DNA from: Paraburkholderia ginsengiterrae
GTDB lineage: Bacteria > Pseudomonadota > Gammaproteobacteria > Burkholderiales > Burkholderiaceae
DNA length: 64,000 bases
NCBI RefSeq assembly: GCF_001645125.1
Contig: NZ_LXKA01000209.1
Location: 44,712 to 108,711 of the forward strand
Direction: 5' to 3'
Shown: piece by piece, positions 4,544 through 39,915 of the stretch
Layout of the letters: each line of letters starts with the position of its first letter
How positions within the stretch are numbered: the stretch's first letter is position 1
Made by a program: the position numbers and the translations under genes
Notes under the pieces: model-generated
The model's input: the letters and a program-made list of their open reading frames with translations, nothing else
Database searches by the model: none
Told to the model about the DNA's origin: nothing

Positions 4544-4555
4544 TGGTGATCACAA
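4544..4555. promoter_or_regulatory. TTGTGATCACAA-type operator, site A
   Basis: TGGTGATCACAA matches the consensus from the other sites in the window at 11 of 12 positions. It lies 58 bp upstream of site B's start-to-end block and about 470 bp upstream of pntAA. I infer binding by one or both GntR/FCD regulators encoded at 27635 and 39978. Confidence 0.55.
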
Positions 4556-4612
4556 CACACGATTGATGACTAATAATGACGTAAAATCCGGCGTTTTTTT
4601 GAAGTAGTATTG

Positions 4613-4628
4613 ATATGTGATCACATAT
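4613..4628. promoter_or_regulatory. TTGTGATCACAA-type operator, site B (16-bp perfect palindrome)
   Basis: ATATGTGATCACATAT is a perfect 16-bp palindrome containing the exact 10-mer TGTGATCACA, which occurs four times in the window, always between genes. It overlaps an A/T-rich stretch (ATATAAAG) that could be part of a promoter reading towards pntAA. Confidence 0.65.
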
Positions 4629-4737
4629 AAAGTACGATTGATTGCCCGAGAATTCTGGTTGCGGCCGACGCGGTCGGGCTAGCTTCAAACATCTGAGGGA
4701 CGAATTCGGGACTCTTGCGCAGTTTGTGGAGGAGTGA

Positions 4738-5010
4738 ATGATGGACGGCACGAGCGACTTCCAACAGGTCCGGCTGGGCGCGGCTGCGGCTGCAAACGCA
4801 GAGGACGCTGCTCTCTGGCGCTGGTTTTCGGAGTTGTTTGAGGATCAACGAATTCGGTGGTGTCGTGCCGAGATTGGTTGGCGCGTAACAGTCGATCATA
4901 GACATGTGGCTACTGAGCTGACCTTCGATGCGGGAATACGCGCGGCAAAGGCCAAAAACAGATGCGTCGCCAGTGCAGCGCAAGCGCAGTCCAAAGAACG
5001 TAGTTCATAA
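4738..5010 (+). CDS. Hypothetical 90-residue protein (doubtful)
   Basis: The frame opens with two ATGs (4738, 4741) behind a good GGAGGAG at 4729-4735 and ends 16 bp before pntAA. The sequence (FQQVRLGAAAAANAEDAALW and RWFSELFEDQ) does not match any family I know, and the end is low-complexity Ala/Lys/Gln. It may be a real leader gene of the pnt operon or a chance frame in a long 5' leader. The ribosome-binding site is the main argument in favour. Confidence 0.25.
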   Translation: MMDGTSDFQQVRLGAAAAANAEDAALWRWFSELFEDQRIRWCRAEIGWRVTVDHRHVATELTFDAGIRAAKAKNRCVASAAQAQSKERSS

Positions 5011-5026
5011 AGAGGCATGTGCATAA

Positions 5027-6169
5027 ATGAACATCGGAATACCAGCCGAGACGCGCGCGCACGAAACCCGCGTCGCCGCGACGCCCGAAACGGTCAGGAA
5101 GTATGTGACCCAGGGCCACCGGGTCACCATTCAGGGCGGCGCCGGTACCGGCGCAAGCTTTCCTGACGAACTCTTTACAGCCGCGGGCGCGGAAATCGTC
5201 GATGCGCCGACGGCCTTCGGCGCCGATCTCGTCCTGAAGGTCCAGTCACCGACCGACGCCGAACTGCCGCTGATGAAGCGCGGCGCGACGCTCGTCGGCA
5301 TGCTCGATCCTTTCAACGCTGAAAACGCCCAGAAGCTGGCCGCGGCCGGCGTCACCGCGTTCGCCCTCGAAGCCGCGCCGCGCACCACGCGCGCGCAAAG
5401 CCTCGACGTGCTGTCGTCACAGGCCAACATCGCCGGGTACAAGGCGGTGCTGCTGGCCGCCACGCTCTATCCGCGCTTCATGCCGATGCTGATGACCGCT
5501 GCCGGCACCGTCAAAGCCGCGCGCGTGCTGATTCTCGGCGCGGGCGTGGCCGGTCTGCAGGCGATTGCTACTGCGAAGCGCCTGGGCGCGGTGATCGAAG
5601 CGTCCGACGTGCGTCCGGCCGTCAAGGAGCAGATCGAATCGCTCGGCGCGAAGTTCCTCGACGTGCCCTACGAAACCGATGAGGAGCGCGAAGCCGCGCA
5701 GGGCGTCGGCGGCTACGCACGGCCGATGCCGCCTTCGTGGCTCACGCGCCAGTCGGCACTGGTGCACGAGCGGGCCAAGCAGGCCGACGTGGTGATTTCC
5801 ACGGCGCTGATCCCGGGCCGCGCCGCGCCGACGCTGATTTCGGTCGAAACCGTGCAGGCGATGAAACCGGGCTCGGTGCTCATCGACCTCGCCGCCGGAC
5901 GCGGTGCCGAGTACGAAGGCCGGCGCGGCGGCAACTGCCCGCTCACCGAAGCGGACCAGGTCGTGGTCAAACATGGCGTGACGATCGTCGGCCATACGAA
6001 TCTGGCCTCGATGGTGCCCGCCGACGCGTCGTCCCTGTACGCGCGCAACCTGCTCGACTTCCTCAAGCTGATCATCACCAAGGAAGGCGCCCTGAACATC
6101 GATCTCGCGGACGACATCGTCGCGGCCACGCTGCTGGCGCGCGACGGCGAAGTCACGCGCAAGGCATAG
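5027..6169 (+). CDS. pntAA: NAD(P) transhydrogenase subunit alpha 1 (NAD-binding domain I)
   Basis: 380 residues, the soluble NAD(H)-binding domain of the proton-translocating transhydrogenase, which passes hydride between NADH and NADP at the inner membrane. It has the alanine-dehydrogenase/PntA layout: start [20 protein letters not shown], Rossmann motif [18 protein letters not shown] at about residue 170, and the mobile-loop region [16 protein letters not shown]. The short length shows the split form (alpha 1/alpha 2/beta) usual in proteobacteria outside the enterics. It is followed after 10 bp by pntAB and then pntB, clearly one operon. Two palindromic operators lie 400-480 bp upstream. 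Confidence 0.95.
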
Positions 6170-6179
6170 GAGAACGGCG

Positions 6180-6506
6180 ATGGAAGTCATCAACCACACC
6201 GTCATCAACCTGATCATCTTCGTGCTGGCGATCTACGTCGGCTACCACGTGGTCTGGAACGTCACACCCGCGCTCCACACGCCGCTGATGGCGGTGACCA
6301 ACGCGATCTCGGCCATCGTGATCGTCGGCGCAATGCTGGCCGCGGGGCTCACGCTCGGCGCGCCGGGCAAGTTCTTCGGCACGCTGGCCGTCGCGCTCGC
6401 GGCGGTGAACGTGTTCGGCGGCTTTCTCGTGACAAGGCGAATGCTGGAGATGTTCCGCAAGAAAGAACCGAAGAAGCTCCCCGCAGCCGGCAAGGAGAAC
6501 GCGTAA
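6180..6506 (+). CDS. pntAB: NAD(P) transhydrogenase subunit alpha 2 (membrane part)
   Basis: 108 residues with about three hydrophobic segments (residues 8-28, 36-60 and 62-85), then a basic tail. It contributes the first membrane helices of transhydrogenase domain II. The start has AGGAG 8 bp upstream. Its TAA overlaps the ATG of pntB by one base (TAATG), so translation is coupled. Confidence 0.95.
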
Positions 6507-7957
6507 TGAGTCTGAACGTCGTCACGCTGCTTTATCTGGTCGCGTCGGTCTGCTTCATCCAGGCGCTCAAGGGGCTGTCCAATCCGAAGACGGCACGCAC
6601 CGGCAATACCTTTGGCATGGTCGGGATGGCGATTGCGATCCTCACCACCATCGCGCTGATCTCCAAACAGGCTGAAGTGCTCGGCTCGAATCTCGGGCTG
6701 GGGCTCGGCCTGCTGCTGGTCGGGCTGGTGGTTGGCGGCGCGATCGGCGCGTTCGTCGCCGCGCGCGTGGAAATGACCAAGATGCCCGAACTGGTCGCGG
6801 CGATGCACTCGCTGATCGGTATGGCTGCCGTATGTATCGCCTATGCGGTGGTGTCGGAACCAGCCGCGTTCGGGCTGGGTGTAGAGGAGGGCATTGCGGG
6901 CTTCCTGCCGTACGGCAACCGCGTCGAGCTCTTTATCGGCACGTTCGTCGGTGCGATTACGTTTAGCGGTTCGGTGATCGCGTTCGGCAAGCTCTCGGGC
7001 AAGTACAAGTTCCGGCTGTTCCAGGGCGCGCCGGTGGTGTACGGCGGCCAGCATCTGATCAACCTGATGCTGGCGATCGCGATGATCGGCTTCGGCGTGA
7101 TCTTCTTCCTCACGCAGTCGTGGTTGCCGTTCATCATCATGACGCTGATCGCGTTCGTGCTGGGGGTGCTGATCATCATCCCGATCGGCGGCGCGGACAT
7201 GCCGGTGGTGGTGTCGATGCTGAACTCGTATTCGGGGTGGGCGGCGGCGGGCATCGGCTTCTCGCTGAACAATCCGATGCTGATCATCGCGGGCTCGCTG
7301 GTGGGCTCGTCCGGTGCGATCCTGTCGTACATCATGTGCAAGGCGATGAACCGCTCGTTCTTCAACGTGATTCTCGGCGGCTTCGGCAACGAGGCGGGCG
7401 CGGCGGTGGCAGGCGGGTCGGCCGAGCAGCGTCCGGTGAAATCGGGTTCGGCGGACGACGCGTCGTTCATGCTCGGCAATGCGGAAACTGTGGTGATCGT
7501 GCCGGGTTACGGTCTGGCGGTGGCGCGCGCGCAGCATGCGCTGAAGGAACTCACGGACAAGCTGGTCGAGAAGGGCATCGAGGTGAAGTACGCGATTCAC
7601 CCGGTGGCCGGGCGCATGCCGGGGCACATGAACGTGCTGCTCGCCGAAGCCGAAGTGCCATACGACATGGTGTTCGAGATGGACGACATCAACGGCGAGT
7701 TCGGCCAGGTCGACGTGGTGCTGGTGCTGGGCGCGAACGACGTGGTGAACCCGGCGGCGAAGAACGATCCGAAGTCGCCGATCGCGGGCATGCCGATTAT
7801 CGAGGCGTATAAGGCGCGCACGGTGATCGTGAACAAGCGCTCGATGGCGGCGGGCTACGCCGGTCTCGACAACGACCTGTTCTACATGGACAAGACGATG
7901 ATGGTGTTCGGCGATGCGAAGAAGGTGATCGAGGATATGGTGAAGGCGGCCGGATAG
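6506..7957 (+). CDS. pntB: NAD(P) transhydrogenase subunit beta
   Basis: 483 residues. The N-terminal 270 residues hold many membrane helices of domain II, including a conserved SGSVIAFGKLSG and PVVVSMLNSYSGWAAAGIGF. The C-terminal domain III binds NADP(H): VIVPGYGLAVARAQHAL, HPVAGRMPGHMNVLLAEA, GANDVVNPAAKNDP and NKRSMAAGYAGLDNDLFY. With PntAA and PntAB it uses proton-motive force to reduce NADP. In this context it could balance NADH from catabolism or supply NADPH to the oxygenases; that is inference. Confidence 0.96.
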   Translation: MSLNVVTLLYLVASVCFIQALKGLSNPKTARTGNTFGMVGMAIAILTTIALISKQAEVLGSNLGLGLGLLLVGLVVGGAIGAFVAARVEMTKMPELVAAMHSLIGMAAVCIAYAVVSEPAAFGLGVEEGIAGFLPYGNRVELFIGTFVGAITFSGSVIAFGKLSGKYKFRLFQGAPVVYGGQHLINLMLAIAMIGFGVIFFLTQSWLPFIIMTLIAFVLGVLIIIPIGGADMPVVVSMLNSYSGWAAAGIGFSLNNPMLIIAGSLVGSSGAILSYIMCKAMNRSFFNVILGGFGNEAGAAVAGGSAEQRPVKSGSADDASFMLGNAETVVIVPGYGLAVARAQHALKELTDKLVEKGIEVKYAIHPVAGRMPGHMNVLLAEAEVPYDMVFEMDDINGEFGQVDVVLVLGANDVVNPAAKNDPKSPIAGMPIIEAYKARTVIVNKRSMAAGYAGLDNDLFYMDKTMMVFGDAKKVIEDMVKAAG

Positions 7958-9125: not shown

Positions 9126-10064
9126 TTAGATCTTCGTTAGCCAGTGAGAGTAGTCAGGATTTTTTCCCGTGACGATATCGAAATAGGCGGACTGGAGTTT
9201 TTCCGTGATCGTCCCGCGGCCGCCCGTGCCGATCGTGCGATTGTCGAGTTCACGAATCGGCGTTACCTCGGCGGCAGTTCCGGTGAAGAATGCTTCGTCT
9301 GCGGTATACACCTCGTCGCGCGTGATGCGTTTTTCGATTACGGGAATCCCGAAGTCTCGCGCCAGCGTGATGATCGTATTACGAGTGATGCCGTCGAGAC
9401 AGGAGGCGAGGTCGGGCGTGTAGAGCTTTCCATCGTTGACTATGAAGAAATTCTCGCCCGAGCCTTCTGAGACGTACCCGTCAACGTCAAGCAATAAAGC
9501 TTCGTCGTAGCCGTCGGTCAGTGCTTCCTGATTCGCCAGAATCGAGTTGACATACCAGCCGGAAGCTTTGGCCCGTACCATTGAGACGTTCACGTGATGG
9601 CGAGTAAATGAGGAAGTCTTGACACGAATTCCTTTTTCCAGACCATCTTTGCCGAGGTACGCCCCCCAAGGCCACGCGGCAATTGCGACGTGGACAGTGT
9701 TGCTCTTCGCCGAAATACCGAGTTTCTCGGAGCCTAGCCAGATAAGCGGGCGCAGATAGCAGGACTTCAGGCCATTTACGCTGACGACTTCCCGCTGTGC
9801 ACTCTCTAGCGTTTCAGCATCGAACGGCACAGTCATCTGAAAGATTTTCGCGGAATTCAACAGTCGCCGGGTGTGCTCCTTCAGCCGGAAATTGGCGGCG
9901 CCGTTCGGACCGTCGTAGGTACGAACGCCTTCAAATGCGCCCATTCCGTAATGCAAGGTGTGGGTCAGGACATGAATCCTGGCGTCCCGCCATTCGACCA
10001 GTTTCCCGTCCAGCCAAATTTTTCCGTCTCGATCGTCAATCGCTGCAACCGGCTTGTCGATCAT
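9126..10064 (-). CDS. ilvE: Branched-chain amino acid aminotransferase family (class IV)
   Basis: 312 residues from an ATG at 10064 that overlaps the hydrolase stop (ATGA). A GTG at 10076 would add four residues but loses the coupling. Class IV PLP aminotransferase features are THTLHYGMGAFEGVRTYDG, the PLP-lysine region SFTRHHVNVSMVRAKASGWY (Lys in VRAKA), DGYDEALLLDVDGYVSEGSG and TADEAFFTGTAAEVTPI. It probably transaminates Ile, Leu or Val, or a related amino acid, with 2-oxoglutarate. As it lies with a hydrolase, opposite an amino-acid-type ABC importer, a catabolic role is likely, so this may be a paralogue of the housekeeping ilvE. Confidence 0.88.
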   Translation of the reverse strand: MIDKPVAAIDDRDGKIWLDGKLVEWRDARIHVLTHTLHYGMGAFEGVRTYDGPNGAANFRLKEHTRRLLNSAKIFQMTVPFDAETLESAQREVVSVNGLKSCYLRPLIWLGSEKLGISAKSNTVHVAIAAWPWGAYLGKDGLEKGIRVKTSSFTRHHVNVSMVRAKASGWYVNSILANQEALTDGYDEALLLDVDGYVSEGSGENFFIVNDGKLYTPDLASCLDGITRNTIITLARDFGIPVIEKRITRDEVYTADEAFFTGTAAEVTPIRELDNRTIGTGGRGTITEKLQSAYFDIVTGKNPDYSHWLTKI

Positions 10065-11269
10065 GGATTCCACCACGTAGGTTCGCCGGTACCGTCGATG
10101 TATTCGCCACCTTTGGTGATAAACGTCCGTGCTTCGTGGCCACTCGGGAATTTACCGGCGAGAGCAGCCCCCAGCCAGTCCAGCGACGCGTTGATCCACT
10201 CGTCCGACTGCGGTCCGATCGGGTGGAACTCGTGTTGGTAAATCCAGAGTTCCTTGGGCCCCTTCAGTCGCTCGTAGACGTCGATGGTCGCGTCGATCGT
10301 CGTCAGTTCGTCATTCTCGCCAGTAACGATAAGGTATGGGATTGTGACATTTGGCGCGATGTCGTCGAGCAGCATCTGCTTGGACAGAGCCTGAATCTCC
10401 AACGGATCGGTGATGCCAGTCATGAACATCAGCCCGGCCATGAAACTAGGTTGCGCCTGATTCAGAAGCACGAACTTGTCACCGAGATTCGACATGTTCG
10501 CTGCGATTGCCGCGATGCGCGGCTCGACCGCAGCCGCGCGCGTCGCCCACCACGAGCCCATGCTCGAACCCATGATCACGATTCGCGACGGGTCAATCGC
10601 TGGATTGCTCGAGAGCCAATCGATGACCGTGCTGATCGCACGATCGTAATTGTCGAGCGTCATCTTCAGGCCTTTGGTCAGGCTCTCGCCTTGGCCGGGG
10701 CCGTCGAGGGAAAAACCAGCCCAGCCCCGCGGCAGAATGCGCTGTTCGATGACCTTGTGCCAGTCTTCCTTGAACATGTCCATGCCCGGCAGCATGACCA
10801 CACACGGCACGCCCTTGGCGCCGATCGGCGTTTCCAGGATGCCGTGAAGTTGCTTGCCTTCAAACGGCAATACGACGCGTTCAATGGGATGCGTTGCCAG
10901 CTCGATGACTTTCTCGAAAGACTGCACGACCTTGTTCAGGTATCGGGTGCGGCGCGGGTCGTCGGCCAGAACCGAATAGTGAGTGCGCGCGTATAGCAGG
11001 GCTGCACGCTCATACATCCGCTTCGCTGTCGTCGCGAAGCCGCGGTTCTCCCAATGCAGGGCGCGCTGCTCGATTTCCCTTGCTGCGGCGCTCCAGCATG
11101 CCGGCAGCATCGAACCTGCTTTGACCGGAGCGAAGACACGTTTGATATCTGTCGAGTCGTAACCGATCTGTTCGAAAAGCGCACCCGCATCCGGGTGCAG
11201 CACGTCCAGTCCACCTACTGAAAGAAACGCGTCCAACACCCAGCGTTGGCCCTTGCGCATCGTATCCAT
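10061..11269 (-). CDS. Alpha/beta hydrolase of the 2,6-dihydropseudooxynicotine hydrolase type
   Basis: 402 residues from the ATG at 11269, which has AGGA about 7 bp upstream; a GTG at 11299 is possible. A helical N-terminal domain (about 140 residues) precedes an alpha/beta-hydrolase core. The nucleophile elbow is IVIMGSSMGSWWATRAA (Ser), the acid TGENDELTTIDA (Asp) and the His in YQHEFHPIG. This two-domain form resembles the C-C bond hydrolase of nicotine breakdown and the FrsA-like esterases, which act on beta-diketone or ester substrates. Translationally coupled to the aminotransferase. The pairing with a transaminase is unusual and the substrate is not evident. Confidence 0.75.
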   Translation of the reverse strand: MDTMRKGQRWVLDAFLSVGGLDVLHPDAGALFEQIGYDSTDIKRVFAPVKAGSMLPACWSAAAREIEQRALHWENRGFATTAKRMYERAALLYARTHYSVLADDPRRTRYLNKVVQSFEKVIELATHPIERVVLPFEGKQLHGILETPIGAKGVPCVVMLPGMDMFKEDWHKVIEQRILPRGWAGFSLDGPGQGESLTKGLKMTLDNYDRAISTVIDWLSSNPAIDPSRIVIMGSSMGSWWATRAAAVEPRIAAIAANMSNLGDKFVLLNQAQPSFMAGLMFMTGITDPLEIQALSKQMLLDDIAPNVTIPYLIVTGENDELTTIDATIDVYERLKGPKELWIYQHEFHPIGPQSDEWINASLDWLGAALAGKFPSGHEARTFITKGGEYIDGTGEPTWWNP

Positions 11270-11315
11270 GATTCCTGTTCTCCATTTTTCAAACGACACG
11301 GACTAGCATACATCC

Positions 11316-11330
11316 GTGATTTGAGATCAC
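11316..11330. promoter_or_regulatory. Inverted repeat GTGAT-N5-ATCAC, site C
   Basis: GTGATTTGAGATCAC differs from the site before the first GntR gene (27607-27621) at one base only. The arms GTGAT/ATCAC are the half-sites of the TTGTGATCACAA palindromes set five bases apart. It lies about 47 bp upstream of the hydrolase start (minus strand). Confidence 0.5.
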
Positions 11331-11438
11331 ACAAGCAAAAAAGTAAAACACAGTATGGAACGGGGAAACCCTATATTGCGCTGAATTGCCGCGCCTATGG
11401 GTGTTTGACGGCTTTTAGGTGTAAACGCGTATTGCGAT

Positions 11439-11450
11439 CAGTGATCACAA
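11439..11450. promoter_or_regulatory. TTGTGATCACAA-type operator, site D
   Basis: CAGTGATCACAA matches the consensus at 10 of 12 positions. It lies 60 bp before the Liv-type binding-protein gene at 11510 and, with site C, in the divergent gap that serves both operons. A TTGACG at 11405-11410 may be a -35 element just upstream. Confidence 0.55.
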
Positions 11451-11509: not shown

Positions 11510-12751
11510 ATGCTGTCGCGCAAACTCGTAGCGGTGTTCGTCGCCGGATTCGCAATAACCGTTCACTCAACGGGGCAGGCCGCGGATTCGGCTCCAATCA
11601 AGGTCGGCCTGATGACGGTCAAAACGGGCGTAGCGGCGGGCATTGGCGGGCAAATGCAGGACGGCTTTGAGTATTTGCTTAGGGAGCGTGGTGGCAGACT
11701 GGCCGGTCGTCCTGTGGAATTGGTCGTGGTGGACACCGCAGCGTCGCCAGTAACGGCCAAGGCCAAGTTCCTGCAACTCACCGAGCGCGATCACGTGGAC
11801 GTCGTTGTAGGTCCGCTCGCCACGTTCGAAGCGGTGGCGATTCGCGACGACGTGGCTCGAGCGGGCGTGCCGCTCATTCTCAGTTCGGCCGCGGCTGAGG
11901 ATCTGACTCAGCGCAAAGCCGATCCATGGATGGTTCGCAGTTCAAGTTCGTCGGCTCAGGCGGCTCAACCGTTCGGTGTGTACGCGGCGAAAACGCTGAA
12001 ATACAGGCGTGTAGCAGTGGTAGCCGAAGACCTGTCGTTCTCGCACGAGACGGTCGCAGGTTTTCAGCGCAGCTACGAAGAGGCGGGTGGGAAAGTAGTC
12101 CAGAAGCTGTGGCCGCCTTTTAACTCCAGCGACTTCGCGACCGTCATCACCCAGATCAAACCGGATGTTGACGCAGTGTTCATCAACTTCTCCGGTGCCA
12201 ATGCGACCCGGTTCCTCAAGCAGTACGCCGACTACGGACTCAAGCAGAAGATCCCGCTTATCGCAGGCATGAACACGGTCGACGAATCTTTGCTCGACAA
12301 GATGGGTGACGAAGCTGTCGGCATAGTTTCAGCCGGCTGGTATAGCGCAGCCATTGATACGGGTGATAACGCCCGCTACGTGAGCGGATTCCGTAAGGCG
12401 TATGGAAGTACGCCGGGTTTCTACGCGACCGGTGGGTATAGCGCAGGGCTGATCCTGGAGCAGGCGCTAAAGTCCAGCAACGGCAAGATTGCAAGCGGAA
12501 AGGACCTTGCGACTTCGCTACATGCAGTCAAGCTCGATGCCTCGCCTCGTGGCCCCTTGAAGCTGGACAGCTATGGCAACCCGATTGTCACCGTCTACAT
12601 CCGCAAGGTCACCCGCGTAGACGGAAGGCTGGTGAATACGGTGCTGCAAAGCTACCCGGACGTAAGCCAATTCTGGACTTACGACCCGAAGGCCTTTCTC
12701 GCCAATCCGGTTTACTCAAGAGACTTTCCGCCTTCGCGGAACCTTGAATAA
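11510..12751 (+). CDS. Liv-type ABC transporter periplasmic substrate-binding protein
   Basis: 413 residues. The ATG at 11510 has GGGAGG 5 bp upstream and opens a clean signal peptide (MLSRKLVAVFVAGFAITVHS, cleaved near GQAADS). The mature part has the type I periplasmic-binding fold of LivK-like proteins: IKVGLMTVKTGVAAGIGGQM, VVGPLATFEAVAIRDD, VAVVAEDLSFSHETVAGFQ and YATGGYSAGLILEQAL. Members bind amino acids, amides or aromatic acids. It is the first gene of a five-gene importer operon; the ligand cannot be told from the sequence. Operators C and D lie upstream. Confidence 0.9.
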   Translation: MLSRKLVAVFVAGFAITVHSTGQAADSAPIKVGLMTVKTGVAAGIGGQMQDGFEYLLRERGGRLAGRPVELVVVDTAASPVTAKAKFLQLTERDHVDVVVGPLATFEAVAIRDDVARAGVPLILSSAAAEDLTQRKADPWMVRSSSSSAQAAQPFGVYAAKTLKYRRVAVVAEDLSFSHETVAGFQRSYEEAGGKVVQKLWPPFNSSDFATVITQIKPDVDAVFINFSGANATRFLKQYADYGLKQKIPLIAGMNTVDESLLDKMGDEAVGIVSAGWYSAAIDTGDNARYVSGFRKAYGSTPGFYATGGYSAGLILEQALKSSNGKIASGKDLATSLHAVKLDASPRGPLKLDSYGNPIVTVYIRKVTRVDGRLVNTVLQSYPDVSQFWTYDPKAFLANPVYSRDFPPSRNLE

Positions 12752-12771
12752 CCGCGCCTAGGGAGCCGTCC

Positions 12772-13632
12772 ATGTCACTCCTTGTCACGCAAGCGCTCAA
12801 TGGCCTCACCTTTGCAGCCTTGTTATTTCTGATGGCGTCTGGTTTCACCCTGATTTTCGGGCTGATGCGCATTCCAAATATGGCGCACGGAGGCTTTTTC
12901 ATGCTTGGAGCCTACCTTGCAGTGACGTTAATTTCTTACCATCTGCCTTTTACTGTGGCCGCAATTGTCGCTGGATTGATTGTCGGCGCGATCGGTGTAG
13001 TCGTCGAGCGGACGATACTTGCGAAGATCGCCGGCAACGAACTGGCACAGGTACTGGCCACGCTCGGCATCGCGTTCGTGATTTCCGATGGTTGCCGGGC
13101 AATATGGGGTGGGATGCCTCTCGAAGTTGCCGCGCCGCAGTGGCTGTCCGGCGTCGTACGCGTTGGCAGCGGGGCGTTTCCGCTCTACCGGCTGGCAGTG
13201 ATGGGGCTCGCCGTTTTGATAGCAATTGGGCTGGATCTGTCGCTGACGCGCACTGTTCTCGGGGCTCGGGTTCGCGCGGCCGTCGGAGACAGGTTGATGG
13301 CGCGTGCATCGGGAATACGCGTCAATCGGTTATTCGCAGCCACATTCTTCGCTGGCGCCTCGCTGGTTGGACTCGCAGGCGTCGTCGGCGCACCGATCAT
13401 GTCTGTCTATCCGGGACTCGATATGGAAGTGCTGCCCCTCGTACTGATCGTCGTCGTCCTGGGCGGGACAGGGAGTATCGGCGGCGCACTTCTTGGAAGC
13501 GTTGTTACCGGGCTAGTTTTCAGCTTCGGACAGTCGTGGTTTCCAGAGCTTTCCTATGTGCTGCTGTTTCTGCCCATGATCTTCGTCCTGGCGGTGCGTC
13601 CGCAGGGGCTGTTCGGGAGGGCAGCATCGTGA
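12772..13632 (+). CDS. Liv-type ABC transporter permease (LivH-like)
   Basis: 286 residues with about eight membrane helices. It has the LivH hallmarks LTFAALLFLMASGFTLIFGL and MRIPNMAHGGFFMLGAYLA at the start, GLDMEVLPLVLIVVVLGGTG and the end MIFVLAVRPQGLFGR. It forms the inner-membrane channel with the following LivM-like protein. Its TGA overlaps the GTG start of that gene. Confidence 0.92.
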   Translation: MSLLVTQALNGLTFAALLFLMASGFTLIFGLMRIPNMAHGGFFMLGAYLAVTLISYHLPFTVAAIVAGLIVGAIGVVVERTILAKIAGNELAQVLATLGIAFVISDGCRAIWGGMPLEVAAPQWLSGVVRVGSGAFPLYRLAVMGLAVLIAIGLDLSLTRTVLGARVRAAVGDRLMARASGIRVNRLFAATFFAGASLVGLAGVVGAPIMSVYPGLDMEVLPLVLIVVVLGGTGSIGGALLGSVVTGLVFSFGQSWFPELSYVLLFLPMIFVLAVRPQGLFGRAAS

Positions 13633-16097: not shown

Positions 16098-16184
16098 AAG
16101 AATTATATGAAGTGAACGAACCGGGTAGGGCGGCACTTCCGAATTGCCATCTAACTCGATTAACCATGTTTGGAGAATGCGGAA

Positions 16185-20092: not shown

Positions 20093-20180
20093 CAATTTGA
20101 TGGTTAAGTTTGGCACAACTCGTCTCTTGCGGCTACATAAAATGGACCTCATCCCACACATGAAGCAGCGGAGGCAAGCG

Positions 20181-24522: not shown

Positions 24523-24543
24523 ACTGACTAACAGGAGCAAACC

Positions 24544-25731: not shown

Positions 25732-25788
25732 GCTGCCTGACTCCCGATAGCTCTGCGTCCCGGTAACCATTCATTCCTTAGTCATTCC

Positions 25789-27537: not shown

Positions 27538-27549
27538 GTGTGATCACAA
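27538..27549. promoter_or_regulatory. TTGTGATCACAA-type operator, site E
   Basis: GTGTGATCACAA matches the consensus at 11 of 12 positions and includes the exact 10-mer TGTGATCACA. It lies about 90 bp upstream of the first GntR gene and suggests autoregulation. Confidence 0.65.
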
Positions 27550-27606: not shown

Positions 27607-27621
27607 GTGATTCGAGATCAC
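27607..27621. promoter_or_regulatory. Inverted repeat GTGAT-N5-ATCAC, site F
   Basis: GTGATTCGAGATCAC ends 13 bp before the ATG of the GntR gene and matches site C at 14 of 15 bases. Bound here, a regulator would block translation-proximal transcription, as expected for autorepression. Confidence 0.5.
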
Positions 27622-27634
27622 TACCGGAGTCAAT

Positions 27635-30830: not shown

Positions 30831-30845
30831 GTGTGTTCTCCTCGA

Positions 30846-32918
30846 TTAATCGCGACCGGGGATGATCGACAGGCTACCGCTCGGACGGCGCTCCGCAATC
30901 GAGCCGGGGTTGATGACCACCGTCGTGAACGACGATTCCACGATGGCGGGCCCAGAAACCGGCTCTCCAGGTTGCATAGCCTCGAAACGGACTACGGCGC
31001 TATCGAGGAAGCCCTTGCCAGCAAAGTAGGCCTTGCGCAATGGGTTGGCGATGGCTTTTGCACTCGACCGGGCAAGGGCGGCGCCCTCCTGCTTGCGGAT
31101 CCGGCAGGAGACGACAGCACTCCAGCCGACAATTTCAATTTGCGAGCCGCTGTCGCGGATCGCGAAAACTTCTTCGTGGGCTTTGTGGAAGCCTTCGATG
31201 AGCGCTTCGACGTCTTCCCTGGTTTCGATCGCAAGGCCGGTGAGCGGTACTTCCAGTTCCCACACCTGTTCTGGATAGCGGGCCTGCGCGAGCAAGGTGA
31301 TCGTCTGTTCGAACGAGCCTTTGCCGGGGCCACCGATGAATTCCTGGCACTTTGCGTGAAGGCCCGTGAGCACCTCGCGAACGCCAGCGAAGTCAAATGC
31401 GGCGGTGCGCGCGAAATGCGTAGCGTAGAACTGGGATGTCAATTCCGACATCATTGCACCTGCCGCGCTCATCGTTGCGCCGACTTGCGGGATGACGAGG
31501 CGAGGAGAGTCCAGGCGCCGGGCGATCAGTACCGAGTTCAATCCTGCAGCGCCACCACCGCCAATCAGCACGGCCTCGCGCGGATCGATACCCTGGTTGA
31601 TAGTGATGTCGAAAATGGCTTGCACCATATTTTCAGTGGCAATCGTGATGATCGCGGCAGCAGCTTCTTCGATGGACATGCCGAGCGGCGTCGCGACGAA
31701 CTTCTCGATTGCGTCGCGTGACGCTTGCGCGTCGAGCTTCATGGTGCCGCCAAGGAAAAAGTCCGGATCGACATAGCCCAAGGCAAGTGATGCGTCAGTG
31801 ACGGTGGGTTGCGTACCGCCTCGCCCATAACACACCGGGCCGGGAACCGCACCGGCGCTTTTTGGCCCTACGTGAAGCATGCCGCCATCATCGACCCAGG
31901 CAATCGAGCCGCCACCCGCGCCGACGCGTTTCACGTCGACGGAAGGAAAACCAGTCATGACGCCGCGATAGGGTGCGCCAATCCAGGTCTCGCGCGACGA
32001 AGGAATACGGCCGCGTCGCACGAGGCTCACGTCGTATGTCGTGCCGCCGGTGTCCGCGATAATTGCCGTGTCGGTCTGTTCGTCGGCCTGTGCAAAGTAG
32101 CGGCCCGATACCGGGGCCATCGACGGACCGGAATTGATGAGGTGAATTGGCGCTTCTGCCACGTGCGCTGCGTCGATAACGCCGCCCTGCGACGTGACCA
32201 CGACAACGCGTCCTGGGAAGCCGGCTTCTTCAAGACGGTCCACCAGTGTGTGCATATAGGCCCGCATCATCGGCTTCAGGGAGGCGTCGATACAGGCCGA
32301 TGAGGCGCGACGGAATTCGCGAGGAATCGGGTTGAGTTGATGTGAGAGCGTGTAGGGCACGCCAGGCAGGTGCTTTTCAAGCAACTCACCAACCTTCAGT
32401 TCGTGGGCCGGGTTGACGACTGACCACAACAGGCAGACCGCAACGGCTTCGACGCCTGCATCGCGCATTTCGGCGCTAATCTTCGCGAATGCCGCTTCAT
32501 CCAGCGATTGCAATTCGCTGCCGTTGGCCAGCATGCGCCCCGGCACTTCCCAGGTCAGCGCGCGCGGAACAAATGGTTCCGGGTAGGGGACCGTGAAATT
32601 GAAAGGCTCGAGTCTGCCGCCTTCACGCAATGTCAGGATGTCCCTGTGGCCTGCCGGCACGACTAGCGCGGTACGCGCCGTGTTGCCGGTGATGATGGCA
32701 TTAATGGCGTGAGTCGTGCCATAGATGAACATCTCACCGCGCTGCAGCATCGCAGCGCGATCAAGCTCGAGACCGTCGGCGGCGACCTGCAGTGCATCTA
32801 GCACGCCGCTGATTGGGTCTGCCGGTGTCGTCGGCGACTTGAACATGTGAAGACTACCGTCGTCATCCTCGACGATGAGGTCGGTGAATGTACCTCCGGT
32901 ATCGACTGCGAAACGCAT
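30846..32918 (-). CDS. hyuA: Hydantoinase A / oxoprolinase-type ATP-binding protein (HyuA)
   Basis: 690 residues from the ATG at 32918 (AGGAG upstream), where the family start MRFAVDTGGTFTDLIVEDDD appears; an open extension to 32951 is not needed. Phosphate-binding loops of the actin-like ATPase fold are DTGGTFTD and IADTGGTTYDVSLV, and other family blocks are GTTHAINAIITGNTARTALV, VGAGGGSIAWVD and INQGIDPREAVLIGGGGAAG. It is the ATP-hydrolysing partner of HyuB. Operators G and H lie in the promoter gap to the divergent SDR gene. Confidence 0.92.
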   Translation of the reverse strand: MRFAVDTGGTFTDLIVEDDDGSLHMFKSPTTPADPISGVLDALQVAADGLELDRAAMLQRGEMFIYGTTHAINAIITGNTARTALVVPAGHRDILTLREGGRLEPFNFTVPYPEPFVPRALTWEVPGRMLANGSELQSLDEAAFAKISAEMRDAGVEAVAVCLLWSVVNPAHELKVGELLEKHLPGVPYTLSHQLNPIPREFRRASSACIDASLKPMMRAYMHTLVDRLEEAGFPGRVVVVTSQGGVIDAAHVAEAPIHLINSGPSMAPVSGRYFAQADEQTDTAIIADTGGTTYDVSLVRRGRIPSSRETWIGAPYRGVMTGFPSVDVKRVGAGGGSIAWVDDGGMLHVGPKSAGAVPGPVCYGRGGTQPTVTDASLALGYVDPDFFLGGTMKLDAQASRDAIEKFVATPLGMSIEEAAAAIITIATENMVQAIFDITINQGIDPREAVLIGGGGAAGLNSVLIARRLDSPRLVIPQVGATMSAAGAMMSELTSQFYATHFARTAAFDFAGVREVLTGLHAKCQEFIGGPGKGSFEQTITLLAQARYPEQVWELEVPLTGLAIETREDVEALIEGFHKAHEEVFAIRDSGSQIEIVGWSAVVSCRIRKQEGAALARSSAKAIANPLRKAYFAGKGFLDSAVVRFEAMQPGEPVSGPAIVESSFTTVVINPGSIAERRPSGSLSIIPGRD

Positions 32919-33004
32919 AAGGCTCTCCTGATGGACAAATAGCGGATTCAACGATCGCTTGATTTGCCGATCGGATATCCTTGCGCAAAGTATATGTCTC
33001 GATC

Positions 33005-33018
33005 TTTGTGATCACAAA
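33005..33018. promoter_or_regulatory. TTGTGATCACAA-type operator, site G (14-bp perfect palindrome)
   Basis: TTTGTGATCACAAA, an exact palindrome with the core 10-mer. It lies 87 bp upstream of hyuA on its side of the divergent gap. Confidence 0.7.
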
Positions 33019-33113: not shown

Positions 33114-33125
33114 CTGTGATCACTA
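33114..33125. promoter_or_regulatory. TTGTGATCACAA-type operator, site H
   Basis: CTGTGATCACTA matches the consensus at 10 of 12 positions. It lies 87 bp before the SDR start, just downstream of the possible promoter. Confidence 0.6.
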
Positions 33126-33211
33126 AAAGCTTAGCCTTTAGCCATGTGGTCGCCGCGATGTAGAAATGCAGGGGCGTTCGAAGTGATGATGTGAACTTGA
33201 AGAGGTCTGTG

Positions 33212-33979
33212 ATGAGCGTTGACGGCAAGGTAGTTGTGGTAACGGGTGGTTCCGGTGGCATCGGCGAGGCGGTGGCGCATCGTCTATCACGAGACGGATA
33301 TCGTGTCGCAGTGGTTGCAAGCTCGAGCGTGGAAAAGGCGGAGAAAGTAGCCGCCGCGATTCGCGCCGAAGGCGGCGATGCCACCGGCTTTGCCTGCGAT
33401 GTCCGAGATGCCGAGGCTGTCGCCAGCCTGATCGAAAAAGTCGTTCAGGCATTTGGCAGGATCGACACGCTTGTGAATGCTGCCGGCGTGTTCAAACCGA
33501 CGCCCGCCGGCAGCGCCGCCTTGCCGGACGTCAATCAGATGATTGACATCAATTTGCGCGGCACGTGGAACACGATCAACGCTGTCGTCCCGCGTCTGAA
33601 GGCAAATGGTGGCGGCAAGATCGTCAATGTCGCGTCTGTCGCGGGTCTGACAGGCTTCGGCACATACGCAATTTACTGTGCAACCAAAGCCGGGATCGTG
33701 ATGCTAACGCGCGCTCTCGCGTGCGAACTTGGGCGCGAAAATATCAACGTCAATTGCGTTGCACCTGGTAACACCGCGACAGGCATGAACGATGACATCC
33801 GCAATGATCCCGAGATGCAAGGCCTGCGCGACTTCATGGCAGCACGCACGCCAAGCACGCGGACATTCTCTGAGCCGCAGGACATTGCGGGTGCTATTTC
33901 CTTCCTCGCTTCCGACTCTGCGCGCGCAATGCACGGAAGCTGTCTGCTGATGGATGAAGGCATCTCCGCCGGTTTGTGA
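33212..33979 (+). CDS. SDR-family NAD(P)-dependent oxidoreductase
   Basis: 255 residues from the ATG at 33212 (AGAGG upstream; an in-frame GTG at 33191 adds seven unlike residues). TGGSGGIG cofactor loop, DVRD, NAAGVFKP, Ser in NVASVAGLTGFGTY and Tyr-x3-Lys in YAIYCATKAG. It resembles FabG-type 3-oxoacyl or secondary alcohol dehydrogenases. First gene of a unit with a second SDR, a BKACE enzyme and an acyl-CoA dehydrogenase, all on this strand and close-spaced. Probably oxidises a hydroxyl group formed in the pathway. Confidence 0.88.
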   Translation: MSVDGKVVVVTGGSGGIGEAVAHRLSRDGYRVAVVASSSVEKAEKVAAAIRAEGGDATGFACDVRDAEAVASLIEKVVQAFGRIDTLVNAAGVFKPTPAGSAALPDVNQMIDINLRGTWNTINAVVPRLKANGGGKIVNVASVAGLTGFGTYAIYCATKAGIVMLTRALACELGRENINVNCVAPGNTATGMNDDIRNDPEMQGLRDFMAARTPSTRTFSEPQDIAGAISFLASDSARAMHGSCLLMDEGISAGL

Positions 33980-34091
33980 CCTTGACACACATGGCGTAGC
34001 GGTGCGAGTAGCGCTGCGGTATCGCTTGTGTATTGAATCATGGCGCCCGCTGGTGCGAGCTGGGCGCTTGTCTTTGATTGAGAGGATGTCC

Positions 34092-34853
34092 ATGCAGGAA
34101 ACAGTCATCGTCACTGGCGGCGCGGATAGCGTCGGCCGTGTAATTGCTGAGCAATTCATTGCACGCGGTGCTCGTGTCCACATTTGCGACGTACGGGCTG
34201 AAGCCGTGGAAGCAACGCTTGCGGCAAATCCGGGTATGACCGGAACAGTTGCCAACGTTGGCAATCCGGCTCAGGTAGCGCAGGTCCTCGAGGACGCTCA
34301 GCGCGCCTTCGGAGATGCCTCGGTTCTGGTCAACAACGTAGGCGTTGCTGGACCGCGCGCAGCTCTTGAGGACATCACCGACGACGCGTGGCGCGAGACG
34401 TTCGATATCAATCTCGGCGGCATGTTCCAGTTCATGAAGCATGTAGTTCCGGCTATGAAGCGCAATCGTCACGGCGCGATCATTAACTTCTCCACCGGAT
34501 CGACCCGTACACGTCTGCCTATGCGCACCGCTTACGTCGTGTCCAAGGCAGCGGTTGAATCGCTGACCCTGAACGCGGCACGTGAGCTCGGCCCGTTCAA
34601 CGTCCGCTGCAACGCGATTTTGCCAGGCATGATCGACAACGAGCGTATGCAGCGCATCGTCGCCAACATCGCCTCGGAAAGCGGACGTACCGCAGGCGAA
34701 GTCGAGTCGGACTATCTGAAATACATTTCGCTGCGGACCAAAGTCCAGCCAGACGATCTCGCTCAAATGGTGCTTTTCCTCGCCTCCAGCGCAGCTTCGA
34801 AGGTCACGGGCGAATTGATTGCCGTTAGCGGCAATGTTGAATGGGAAATCTAA
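34092..34853 (+). CDS. SDR-family oxidoreductase (second)
   Basis: 253 residues from the second of two nearby ATGs (34086, 34092), with GAGAGG at the right distance from the latter. TGGADSVG cofactor loop (a variation on TGxxxGxG), NNVGVAGP, Ser in NFSTGSTRTRLPM and Tyr-x3-Lys in YVVSKAAVE. Ends with the usual VTGELIAVSGNVEW. It is 113 bp after the first SDR and only one base separates its stop from the next ATG, so it is coupled to the BKACE gene. Confidence 0.86.
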   Translation: MQETVIVTGGADSVGRVIAEQFIARGARVHICDVRAEAVEATLAANPGMTGTVANVGNPAQVAQVLEDAQRAFGDASVLVNNVGVAGPRAALEDITDDAWRETFDINLGGMFQFMKHVVPAMKRNRHGAIINFSTGSTRTRLPMRTAYVVSKAAVESLTLNAARELGPFNVRCNAILPGMIDNERMQRIVANIASESGRTAGEVESDYLKYISLRTKVQPDDLAQMVLFLASSAASKVTGELIAVSGNVEWEI

Positions 34854-34854
34854 C

Positions 34855-35748
34855 ATGTCCAGAAAAGTCATTCTGACCTGTGCGGTCACCGGTAACGCAC
34901 CGTTTAATCCGAAACATCCGGCTATGCCGATCACGCCGGCTCAGATCGCCGACGCATGTGTGGAGGCCGCGAAAGCCGGCGCATCAGTAGCTCACATTCA
35001 CGTGCGTGACCCCGAAACTGGCGGTGGCAGCCGCGATCCCAAGCTCTTCAAAGAGGTGGTCGACCGCGTCCGTCAGTCGGGCACCGATATCGTTCTGAAC
35101 CTGACCTGCGGTCTTGGCGCGTTTTTCCTGCCCGACCCCGAAGATGAAGCGCGTGGACTTCCGGAAAGCGACGTTATTCCCGTTGCGGAGCGCGTTCGTC
35201 ACCTTGAAGAGTGTCTCCCGGAAATTGCCTCACTGGACATCACGACGGGGAATCAGGTCGAAGGAAAGCTGGAGTTTGTGTACCTGAACACGACGCGAAC
35301 CCTGCGTGCGATGGCCAAGCGGTTCCAGGAGTTGGGCGTTAAGCCGGAACTGGAAGTTTTCAGCGCTGGCGACATCCTGTTTGGCAAGTCGCTTATCACT
35401 GACGGGCTGATCGACGGCGTCCCGTTGTTCCAGATGGTACTCGGGGTCCTATGGGGTGCTCCTGCCACGACTGAGACCATGATTTATCAGCGCAATCTGA
35501 TCCCTGAGAACGCGCAATGGGCAGCGTTTGGCATTGCACGCGACGAAATGCCAATGGTTGCGCAGTCAGCGCTGCTTGGTGGGAATGTGCGCGTCGGCCT
35601 TGAAGACAATCTGTACCTCAGCCGCGGTGTGTTCGCGACCAATGGCCAACTGGTCGATCGCGCGAGCACCATCATTCACCACCTGGGCATGTCGGTTGCC
35701 ACGCCCGCCGAAGCGCGCGAAATCATGCAATTGAAGACCCCGCAATAA
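34855..35748 (+). CDS. Beta-keto acid cleavage enzyme (BKACE, DUF849)
   Basis: 297 residues. The ATG at 34855 opens SRKVILTCAVTGNAPFNPKH, and the family zinc site shows as AHIHVRDPETGGGS (two His of HxH) with a His/Glu pair further on. GNVRVGLEDNLYLSRGVFAT near the C-terminus is the typical BKACE block. These enzymes react a beta-keto acid with acetyl-CoA, giving acetoacetate and a CoA ester (3-keto-5-aminohexanoate or dehydrocarnitine cleavage are known cases). It implies that the pathway includes a free beta-keto acid, made by one of the SDRs before it. Confidence 0.9.
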   Translation: MSRKVILTCAVTGNAPFNPKHPAMPITPAQIADACVEAAKAGASVAHIHVRDPETGGGSRDPKLFKEVVDRVRQSGTDIVLNLTCGLGAFFLPDPEDEARGLPESDVIPVAERVRHLEECLPEIASLDITTGNQVEGKLEFVYLNTTRTLRAMAKRFQELGVKPELEVFSAGDILFGKSLITDGLIDGVPLFQMVLGVLWGAPATTETMIYQRNLIPENAQWAAFGIARDEMPMVAQSALLGGNVRVGLEDNLYLSRGVFATNGQLVDRASTIIHHLGMSVATPAEAREIMQLKTPQ

Positions 35749-35828
35749 AAGCGTGGTTTTTTTGCGGGCGTGTGTCGTGAGTGCATTGACATTCGCGCAC
35801 CGCCCGTTTTTGTTGTCTGGAGATGCAA

Positions 35829-36965
35829 ATGATATTGACGGCCGAGCAGCAGATGATGCAGGACTCAATGCGCGCGTTCGCTCAGGAAAAACTCTTGCCA
35901 CGTGCAGAACATTGGGAGGCAAGCGCGGAGTTTCCTCGCGCGGCGCTTAAGGAGTTGGGGGAACTGGGCGCCCTTGGTATGACTGTATCGGAAGAATACG
36001 GCGGCGTCGGACTGGATTACGTGTCTCTGGCTGTCGTAATCGAAGAGATTGCGGCTGGCCACGGTGCCACGTCGACCATTGTATCTGTGCAGAATTCGCT
36101 GGTTTGCGGCATTACGGCACGGTTTGGCAGCGAAGCACAGAAGAAGACGTATCTGACTGGCCTTGCAACGGGCGAGCTGTTGGGCTGCTTCTGTCTCACA
36201 GAGCCGCATACGGGCTCGGATGCGTCGGCTCTCAGAACGACGGCCCGTCGCGACGGAGACGAGTGGGTCATCAACGGGGTCAAACAATTCATTACGACTG
36301 GGCGGGAGGGTGATGTTGCGCTTGTCTTCGCTGTCACTGACGCGTCGGCTGGCAAGCAGGGGATTTCCTGCTTCATTCTGCCCACGACGACGAAAGGTTA
36401 CATAGTGACGGGCGTTGAGCGCAAGCTCGGGCAGCACGCTTCGGACACGGCGCAGATTACTTTTGAAGATTGCCGTGTGCCGGGTGACGCCCTTGTGGGC
36501 GAACTGGGCCAGGGCTACCGGATTGCGCTTTCCAACCTCGAGGCCGGTCGCATCGGGATCGCGGCCCAGTCAATCGGGATGGCGCGCGCCGCTTATGAGG
36601 TTGCTGTGAGCTATGCGCGGGAACGCCATGCATTCGGTATTCCTCTCGTCGGACATCAAGCAGTAGCTTTCCGCCTCGCTGACATGGCTACGAATATCGA
36701 GGCAGCTCGGCAGTTGACGTGGCATGCGGCAGCTCTGAAGGACGCGGGGCAAGCCTGTCTGAAGGAGGCTTCGATGGCAAAGCTATTCGCATCGGAAGCT
36801 GCGGAAAAAGTGTGCAGCGCTGCCATTCAAACTCTGGGAGGGTATGGGTACACGAAGGATTTCCCGGTGGAGCGGATTTATCGGGATGTACGGGTGACCC
36901 AGATCTACGAGGGGACCAGCGATGTGCAACGTATTGTGATCGGTCGTGCGGTCATCGGGGCATAA
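35829..36965 (+). CDS. Acyl-CoA dehydrogenase
   Basis: 378 residues from the second ATG (35829, GGAG 6 bp upstream). FAD and substrate motifs: [40 protein letters not shown] and the late block [20 protein letters not shown] followed by [19 protein letters not shown]. The catalytic Glu of short-chain enzymes is in IYEGTSDVQ. It introduces a 2,3 double bond into an acyl-CoA and passes electrons to ETF. It fits between the 2-oxo acid oxidoreductase and the HSD10-like SDR; no enoyl-CoA hydratase is present in the window. Confidence 0.93.
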
Positions 36966-38574: not shown

Positions 38575-38728
38575 CTTTGAGCATGGCTTCGTCGTATGAA
38601 GGAAAAACCAATTGTGGGCCACACCCACGATATGATCCAGATGGCGTGCGTTGACCTTGCTGGAAAAGGTCGCATTACATGCGCCTGCGGGTGTCGAGTT
38701 GGCGCGACCACAAGTCGTGGTGATGGCG

Positions 38729-39670
38729 TTACGGCGTGTCGCGCGGCGAAATAGATGCGGCTGACTGCAGACTGGATTCGCCGACATGGGGGGTGCCCGG
38801 AGCGGTGCGATGACTTAACGCGTCGAGCTGCGCGAGACTCATCTCGACGAAGTGCATCACCTTCGCCGGGACATATTTTCGGCTGGGATACGCCACATGA
38901 ATATCGACACGATCCAGTTTCTCGTCCGCGAGAACTTTTCTTAGACTGCCGTCGGCGAGATCGTTGGCTATCAGAAAGGCGGGCAATATCGCGATGCCCA
39001 ACCCCTCTCGTGCAAGAAGACGGAGCATTGCCGTGTTCGTGGTGAGGTGCAGATTGCTACATCCGGCGGCCGCAAACCTTTTTGCGAAGCTCTTGAGGCA
39101 AAGAATCCTGTGATTCGCGAGCTCAGCGTAGCTTTTCGGATTCGCCCCGGTGAGATAGGCGGGAGTGGCGCACGCCACGAAGCTGCTTCCACTCGCCTTG
39201 CGAGTGACTATGTCCTCGCTCCTGAGCATGGCTTCAACGACGACCGCTACGTCGAATCCTTCTTCGATTAAATCGATCGGTCTGTCGGCCAGCGTAATGT
39301 CGATCGACACCTCCGGGTATCGCTTGCAGTAGGCGGCTACCAGCGGGGCAAGTAAGGCGAGAGCGAGCGCCGACGGCATTGCGACACGTAGTGCCCCAGA
39401 AGGCGCCGCGGCTTCATGTCCGGCGCGCGCTTCGGCCTCGGCCGTGGCGCTCAGAATCTCGCGGCAGCGCTCGGCGAATTCGGTCCCGGTAGTGGTGGGC
39501 AGAACGTTTCGTGTGCTGCGCTGGAGGAGTCGAGCCCTGAGGTGAGTCTCCAGCTCGGCGATGGCGCGGGTAACCATTGGTTTGGATAGCTCGAGCACGC
39601 GAGCCGCCCCGGCGAAGCTGCCACTGTCGATGACCTGAACGAATACCCGCATCGTGAAAAGTCTGTCCAC
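38729..39670 (-). CDS. LysR-family transcriptional regulator
   Basis: 313 residues from a GTG at 39670; the start MDRLFTMRVFVQVIDSGSFA fits the family. HTH SFAGAARVLELSKPMVTRAI, then a substrate-binding effector domain (ALRVAMPSALALALLAPLVA, GFDVAVVVEAMLRSEDIVTR). It resembles the large CrgA-like LysR group. The second GntR gene is divergent, with operators I and J in the gap. The target cannot be read; LysR regulators usually control a divergent gene or themselves. Confidence 0.92.
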   Translation of the reverse strand: MDRLFTMRVFVQVIDSGSFAGAARVLELSKPMVTRAIAELETHLRARLLQRSTRNVLPTTTGTEFAERCREILSATAEAEARAGHEAAAPSGALRVAMPSALALALLAPLVAAYCKRYPEVSIDITLADRPIDLIEEGFDVAVVVEAMLRSEDIVTRKASGSSFVACATPAYLTGANPKSYAELANHRILCLKSFAKRFAAAGCSNLHLTTNTAMLRLLAREGLGIAILPAFLIANDLADGSLRKVLADEKLDRVDIHVAYPSRKYVPAKVMHFVEMSLAQLDALSHRTAPGTPHVGESSLQSAASISPRDTP

Positions 39671-39749
39671 TATATTCCCGCCTTCGATTTCCCGGATGCG
39701 GCAAGTGTCCGCTTGTACAGTCCTGGCGCTGCTTCCTTCGCATGAAGAT

Positions 39750-39761
39750 AAATGATCACAA
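39750..39761. promoter_or_regulatory. TTGTGATCACAA-type operator, site I (weak)
   Basis: AAATGATCACAA matches the consensus at 9 of 12 positions, one full half-site. It lies 79 bp upstream of the LysR start. Confidence 0.4.
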
Positions 39762-39901
39762 AGTCGGATTGTAATTCACGCATCGTAAGTTGTGCGTGGT
39801 CGCTCTACCAAAATAAATGTGCCAATAATAGTGGGACAAAGTAGTTGCGGGCACGTCAATAGCTGAAATTCGAATCGTCAGAAGACTGGGCTTGCAATAC
39901 A

Positions 39902-39915
39902 CTTGTGATCACAAG
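39902..39915. promoter_or_regulatory. TTGTGATCACAA-type operator, site J (14-bp perfect palindrome)
   Basis: CTTGTGATCACAAG contains the full consensus palindrome. It ends 62 bp before the ATG of the second GntR gene, as expected for autoregulation. Confidence 0.7.

Follow-up and report, generated by a model that had tools for sequence, protein, structure and literature searches.

The palindrome GTGATCAC has already been proposed, in PMC6365646, for a GntR-like protein encoded beside short-chain dehydrogenase/reductase (SDR) and beta-keto acid cleavage enzyme (BKACE) genes in Pseudomonas simiae. That protein is PS417_07240, and its cluster is described there as serving deoxyribonate oxidation, i.e., a different pathway from the one considered here. 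The same paper reports this motif for AkgR of Rhodobacter sphaeroides, with the title of the original AkgR paper speaking of central carbon and energy metabolism. Described here is a catabolic gene cluster of Paraburkholderia ginsengiterrae (contig NZ_LXKA01000209.1, positions 44,712 to 108,711), a stretch of 64,000 nucleotides referred to below as the window, in which copies of GTGATCAC stand before several operons and which encodes two GntR-type regulators, GntR1 and GntR2. With a probability of roughly 0.85, this palindrome core is viewed as the putative operator of GntR1, the GntR/FCD protein encoded from 27635, and, by near-identity of the helix-turn-helix (HTH) region, of its paralog GntR2, encoded from 39978.

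As GTGATCAC is found already in PMC6365646, the idea of a novel motif was rejected, and an earlier note on this DNA, which knew of no described regulon with this motif and gene set, was mistaken as to the motif. As to the gene set its statement stands, since literature searches found no paper describing that set. The kind of regulon is known, that is, and it is this regulon which seems to be new. For the P. simiae cluster the excerpts of PMC6365646 name no HyuAB and no 2-oxoacid enzyme of the indolepyruvate ferredoxin oxidoreductase (IOR) family, with 'hydantoin' absent from the main text, and they place the site at -47 to -40 relative to the start codon versus -95 to -88 here. Among the 12 papers listed for the motif none was matched by the 12-mer, and the 10-mer discussed next occurs within a primer in the one on bacterial catabolism (PMC12724174). 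Papers listed for GTGATCAC together with GntR were, besides PMC6365646, PMC2703642, where it is found within a primer, and PMC5989213.

The exact 10-mer TGTGATCACA is found in the window at 4616, 27539, 33007, and 39904, just where the earlier note had placed it, versus a mean of 0.05 copies upon shuffling and with none of 100 shuffles reaching four. A scan of the whole genome (8,533,041 bases in 393 contigs), such as that note had called for, found these four copies, every one in this cluster, and none elsewhere in the 8.53 Mb. With up to one mismatch allowed, 80 places are found genome-wide, the window accounting for 9 of them. Among the 50 of those 80 that were listed, 11 outside of the cluster retain the GTGATCAC core, all 11 of them touching open reading frames (ORFs) of at least 100 codons (the copy at L117 at the first codon only), which as a control is weak in G+C-rich DNA; a further such core copy, L112 (230), is in no ORF of that length. 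Within the window, six of the seven exact copies of GTGATCAC are outside of every ORF of at least 100 codons. The seventh, at 11441, is inside only the over-extended start of the ORF of sbp (the binding protein of an importer), for which the likely start is the ATG at 11510, and with that start all seven are intergenic, as had been said of the sites generally. A looser search, for the 12-mer with up to three mismatches, gives 23 places in the window versus 20.1 expected, i.e., not above chance, and the signal thus resides in near-perfect copies. A scoring matrix built from 43 sites of relatives, the window excluded, finds nine window sites scoring at least 12 versus 1.3 expected per Markov shuffle, this with training sites picked as near-consensus and such sites therefore being favored. 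These nine, all in non-coding gaps of the cluster, are at 4544, 4615, 11321, 11439, 27538, 33006, 33114, 39750, and 39903. Six of them (22.9 or higher) beat the best of 50 shuffles (19.4), with 11321 equaling that maximum (19.4), and 4544 (17.7) and 39750 (13.8) falling below it. All eight sites of the earlier list are among these, to within 1 to 2 bases, with 11321 missing from that list.

GntR1 (27635..28411, plus strand, 258 amino acids) is the proposed reader of the palindrome, and GntR2 (39978..40772, plus strand, 264 amino acids) is 70% identical to it over 235 amino acids, rising to 37 of 40 positions over the HTH stretch, and to call the two near-twins with almost identical HTH regions was therefore apt. 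Because of that near-identity, GntR2 would be expected to read the same operator. Both have an N-terminal GntR HTH domain (PF00392; 49.2 and 46.4 bits, cut-off 27) along with a C-terminal FCD domain (PF07729; 84.4 and 80.0 bits, cut-off 24.3). The palindromic operators of FadR/FCD-type GntR regulators have the form TNGT..ACNA, and TTGT-GATC-ACAA, which fits this form with a spacing of 4, is present before gntR1 in all nine genomes compared below. GTGATCAC lies upstream of the regulator gene, as would be expected of a GTGATCAC-reading GntR protein of the PS417_07240 and AkgR kind. The closest solved structure by sequence is McbR (YncC) of E. coli (PDB 4p9f; E 8.1e-24), the target genes of which differ from those here.

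A survey of 399 genomes of the family found a GntR of this type (E 1e-60) in nine, this one included, and among 145 genomes of the genus it was found in this genome only; the cluster thus is patchy. The eight relatives with a related cluster fall in Caballeronia, Burkholderia, and Cupriavidus, and are Caballeronia sp. SEWSISQ10-4 (G348), Burkholderia sp. Bp8963 (G247), B. ambifaria RZ2MS16 (G063), Cupriavidus necator UYPR2.512 (G327), C. pinatubonensis HN-2 (a strain from soil; plasmid p2; G347), and three of the same genus code (G292, G322, and G220). The genes gntR1, hyuAB, sdr2, sdr3, bkace, abh, and those of the importer are retained in all eight, with G327 deviating in its lower identity and in its partial matches to sdr3 and bkace. 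In all nine genomes GTGATCAC occupies the gntR1, hyuA, sdr2, and sbp slots, and before abh it is often degenerate. Whether sites stay with these genes in relatives, a check which the earlier note had proposed, is answered by the same promoters carrying them in four genera. Exact copies were counted as well in 16 genomes, eight with this GntR and eight of the genus without it: the former have two to seven each, 24 of these 31 being at the cluster, and the latter have none or one.

Considering the sites individually, the candidate operator before gntR1 is GTGTGATCACAA (27538..27549). A weak second site, TCGAGATCACTA (27612..27623), with a matrix score at chance level, is found in the gntR1 leader, where AGATCAC is kept in eight of nine aligned leaders and GAGATCAC in seven. 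The divergent abh-sbp region carries, toward abh, the operator-like site TTGAGATCACAC (11321..11332), the GATCAC core of which is retained in all eight aligned genomes, with the full GTGATCAC in four of those eight; the rearranged ninth genome, G327, has sites before abh. Preceding gntR2 is the candidate operator TTGTGATCACAA (39903..39914), with a site in this slot in all four genomes that have gntR2. The weak site AAATGATCACAA (39750..39761) is in the gap between lysR and gntR2, and comparable second sites are seen in G247 and G063, with none listed in G348.

The remaining conserved sites coincide with promoter-like elements. The candidate operator before hyuA, TTGTGATCACAA (33006..33017), provides with its first half, on the minus strand, the -35-like element of TTGTGA-17-TATACT, with the register the same in nine of nine genomes (TATACT in seven, TATGCT in two). 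The candidate operators before sdr2 (CTGTGATCACTA, 33114..33125) and before sbp (CAGTGATCACAA, 11439..11450) instead fill 17-base spacers, i.e., of TTGATC-17-TAGCCT and TTGCGA-17-GACATT, in one register in eight of nine aligned genomes for sdr2, with G327 one base off, and in eight of eight for sbp, with G327 not aligned. None of 300 shuffles did as well as these aligned promoters for hyuA, sdr2, or sbp, which overstates the case as shuffling breaks the kinship of the rows. With shuffling per genome, carried out for four genomes, the summed promoter score was reached by 0 of 300 shuffles for the window, 0 of 300 for G322, 2 of 300 for G327, and 12 of 300 for G063. The hyuA promoter is strong alone and the transhydrogenase (pnt) promoter, discussed below, is strong in the window.

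With sites on or between -35- and -10-like elements, in one register, repression is the likely mode of control and is the mode favored here from these predicted elements. An alternative is that the same GntR proteins bind the same sites but as activators, which we consider unlikely. Sites between -35 and -10 normally block polymerase, and it is there that the site centers fall (about -22 to -30), rather than at -41 or upstream, in nine of nine genomes for hyuA, eight of nine for sdr2, and eight of eight for sbp, with the elements themselves being predicted ones. In favor of activation is that AkgR, said to share the motif, is called a transcriptional activator in PMC6365646. Under repression, a GntR dimer sitting on the -35/-10 region would, without inducer, block RNA polymerase at the promoters of hyuAB, of sdr2-sdr3-bkace, and of the importer, and GntR would limit its own synthesis as well. 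A pathway intermediate, upon being bound by the FCD domain, would then release GntR, with importer and enzymes consequently being made together. The hyuA and sdr2 operators, facing one another across the same gap (33006-33125), are 108 bp apart in eight of nine genomes, though the intervening sequence varies, and 95 bp apart in G327; DNA looping between this pair is possible.

The association of site with regulator extends beyond the family. Of 398 genomes surveyed across the phylum, 56 have a homolog at E 1e-25, this one included, and the loci read were the best from each of 29 of the 55 others. Within the stretch running from -400 to +60 around the inferred gene start, the exact 10-mer is found at 13 of these 29 loci, plus with one mismatch at two more, and the 13 span seven families, with five of the 13 from one genus. 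Site density is about 12-fold higher in these upstream regions (14 sites in 13,340 bp) than in the remainder of the same loci (8 in 90,939 bp), and six of those eight non-upstream copies are pairs within three similar loci. At the level of sequence, the regulator clade therefore is tied statistically to the site across the phylum. In those three loci (L084-L086) the paired exact copies of TGTGATCACA are 63 bp apart and precede other GntR homologs by some 800 to 1000 bp; they may be operators of a further regulon. Among 12 wider regions, a chosen selection, six with the site hold SDR and BKACE homologs (G564, G770, G682, G410, G009, and G593), and G720 has HyuAB, BKACE, and SDR homologs and no site.

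It is with this breadth in mind that reading of the palindrome by some other regulator can be judged, whether by the LysR protein encoded at 38729, by the Lrp/AsnC protein encoded at 19565, or by a global factor such as CRP. Genes for LysR and Lrp are indeed in or beside the cluster, and the half-site TGTGA resembles that of CRP. The site, however, stays with GntR proteins of this clade where the neighboring genes are different, e.g., in G564, G770, G682, and G410, and a site for a global factor would not be restricted to four exact copies in one cluster. CRP, furthermore, requires a 6-base spacer, and a CRP site was rejected given that the palindrome lacks this spacer. We thus hold a reader other than the GntR proteins to be very improbable.

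Weighing against operation of the palindrome as the operator of these GntR proteins are a number of points. Taken one by one within the window, the promoters of sdr2, sbp, and gntR2 are weak, with 44, 46, and 83 of 300 shuffles, respectively, doing as well, and for gntR1 no consistent -35/-10 pair was found across genomes. Single exact copies occur by chance elsewhere too, with or without a GntR of this type: of 12 stray copies in the 16-genome count, seven are in five of the eight GntR-bearing genomes (one or two each) and five are in five of the eight without (one each), with 11 of the 12 inside ORFs of at least 100 codons and L055 the exception. Across the phylum, the exact 10-mer is missing from the upstream region at 16 of the 29 loci with a homolog, and L070 and L072 share the TSTMPVREA motif yet have no exact site. 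Of three named plasmid homologs, L150 (Mesorhizobium) has a site at -77 and L148 and L149 have none. As an aside, at L149 (Variovorax paradoxus VAI-C plasmid, 1-16666) the GntR homolog, of 42% identity, adjoins HyuAB along with an SDR and a pair of alpha/beta hydrolases, with no GTGATCAC seen, and this region may encode a sister pathway under a different operator.

There remains the matter of why there would be two such regulators. Coordination by both had been suggested, and as a general scheme this does not hold, since five Cupriavidus-type genomes have a single GntR of this type (E 1e-60) yet keep the same slots, i.e., the twin is not needed. The second gene, gntR2, is found in four genomes, each with a preceding site, and would be an extra copy carried by part of the lineages. 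A gene tree did not give the order of the duplication, with 4 of 18 inner branches well supported and the joining point of the Cupriavidus proteins unresolved. As a refinement of the proposed GntR operator rather than an alternative to it, the two proteins might differ in their inducers or in which of the sites they use, giving rise to two overlapping regulons. The near-identical HTH, as compared with the greater difference over the rest of the two proteins, would fit with this, as would the gntR2 slot existing only where gntR2 exists. All of the sites have one core, however, and nothing separating two classes of site was seen, no dedicated test having been made. The idea is possible but rather less likely than not.

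The transhydrogenase slot stands apart. The operator-like site TGGTGATCACAA (4544..4555) lies 71 bp before the candidate operator ATGTGATCACAT (4615..4626), the latter within a promoter-like TTGATA-17-TACGAT (4610-4638), the score of which was reached by 2 of 300 shuffles. Both precede pntAA (5027-6169) and pntB (6506-7957), plus-strand genes (5027..7957) for a Re/Si-specific NAD(P) transhydrogenase, and they do so in this genome only, i.e., in one of nine, which limits the earlier note's inclusion of the transhydrogenase operon to this genome. A trial pntAB interval, with 6 stops in its translation, was excluded from the conservation counts. A second pntAA-like copy elsewhere in this genome (G000:C100) is 97.5% identical over 1,248 bases of DNA (5027-6274), with the match starting exactly at the start codon and ending with the contig, and with an unrelated upstream region lacking GTGATCAC. 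It looks as though the coding region had been moved to a position behind a new promoter. Of 26 other pntAA-type loci in the nine genomes, 24 lack the GTGATCAC core in the stretch examined, one (L142, in G327, about 44% identical) has it 261 bases upstream with a different flank (GCGTGATCACGC), and one (L130) has it inside of the gene. Recruitment of pntAB to these sites, resting on the sequence of one genome, looks to be local: a duplicated transhydrogenase operon would here have been brought under the same sites.

Turning to the genes themselves, on the minus strand (9126..11270) are an ilvE-type aminotransferase (9126-10076) and the alpha/beta hydrolase abh (10061-about 11270), the latter distantly resembling 2,6-dihydroxypseudooxynicotine hydrolase. 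Divergent from these, on the plus strand, is a branched-chain-amino-acid-type ABC importer (11510..16097; sbp, two permeases, and two ATPases), followed by a porin (16170..17390). Within the stretch between importer and IOR is the Lrp/AsnC-type regulator (19565..20038, minus strand), and then, on the plus strand, come the IOR-family protein (ior; 20079..23720) and a set consisting of an SDR, a thiolase, and a Glu/Leu/Phe/Val-type amino acid dehydrogenase (23740..26874), this last most resembling leucine dehydrogenases. Downstream of gntR1 on the minus strand (28492..32951) are hyuA (30846-32951), hyuB (29022-30830), and a hexapeptide-repeat protein (28492-29025), which corresponds to an annotated gamma carbonic anhydrase in a relative. 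On the plus strand are sdr2, sdr3, and bkace, i.e., two SDRs and a BKACE (33191..35748), and an acyl-CoA dehydrogenase (35823..36965), which tblastn did not find in the regions fetched from the eight relatives. Also in the cluster are a member of the inositol monophosphatase family, a protein that matches NHL marginally, a chemoreceptor, and the LysR protein (38729). The plus-strand ORFs 28436-29089 and 19517-19915 probably are not genes, as an annotated relative has opposite-strand gamma carbonic anhydrase and Lrp/AsnC genes there, and the second, antisense to Lrp, was excluded from conservation counts. At the left edge (3409-4422) is a tyrosine-recombinase-like protein, with weak XerC/XerD scores below cut-off, and given this protein along with a regulator found in 1 of 145 genus genomes, it is possible that the cluster is an island.

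The families of these enzymes suggest that a lactam is opened at the expense of ATP, with dehydrogenation and cleavage of a beta-keto acid as further reactions. HyuAB has a two-subunit layout in common with the caprolactamase CapAB of Pseudomonas jessenii (PDB 6YRA), which according to PMC8453981 requires ATP and bicarbonate, the substrate here probably being different. In the printed alignments with CapAB, the ATP-site residues D11 and D295 and the metal-site residues D41, H99, D102 (D101 in the abstract), and H124 are all conserved, and NCBIfam caprolactamase scores of 535.4 and 240.5 bits fall far short of the equivalog cut-off of 1000. A role as an acetone or acetophenone carboxylase was set aside as a minor option only, as caprolactamase and hydantoinase outscore the carboxylases. 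The BKACE exceeds the cut-off of its domain (PF05853; 301.5 versus 24.8 bits), resembles 3c6c (599 bits), and is below that of the NCBIfam equivalog for the 3-keto-5-aminohexanoate cleavage enzyme of lysine fermentation (218.9 versus 382 bits).

One may go further, to a hitherto undescribed pathway acting on cyclic lactams that derive from amino acids (tetramate-like, or like gamma-amino-beta-hydroxy or -keto acids), though with each step taken from protein families this whole scheme is distinctly speculative, and we think it improbable in full. The abh hydrolase would remove an acyl group by C-C cleavage, and HyuAB would open the lactam with ATP and with bicarbonate, the latter coming from the carbonic-anhydrase-like protein encoded next to it. 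The SDRs would set the beta-keto group, and from the gamma-amino-beta-keto acid BKACE would produce acetoacetate along with an aminoacyl-CoA. The freed amino acid would be burned by the amino acid dehydrogenase together with IOR. The in-promoter GntR operator would keep this pathway shut down for as long as neither the lactam nor its opened acid is present. A literature search on tetramic acid and hydantoinase gave, by title, nothing on tetramate degradation among the matches listed (best 20 of 146), with caprolactam degradation present.

The cluster, in any case, appears to equip certain soil bacteria to degrade some compound. With a putative regulator-operator pair along with a conserved promoter architecture in hand for this patchy catabolic cluster, its pathway may be findable via what it is that lifts repression. 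More generally, the putative GTGATCAC operator is extended from the two cases named in PMC6365646 to a GntR clade across the phylum, members of which in several instances are found beside beta-keto acid cleavage enzymes, and this clade-wide link should allow such regulons to be called from sequence.

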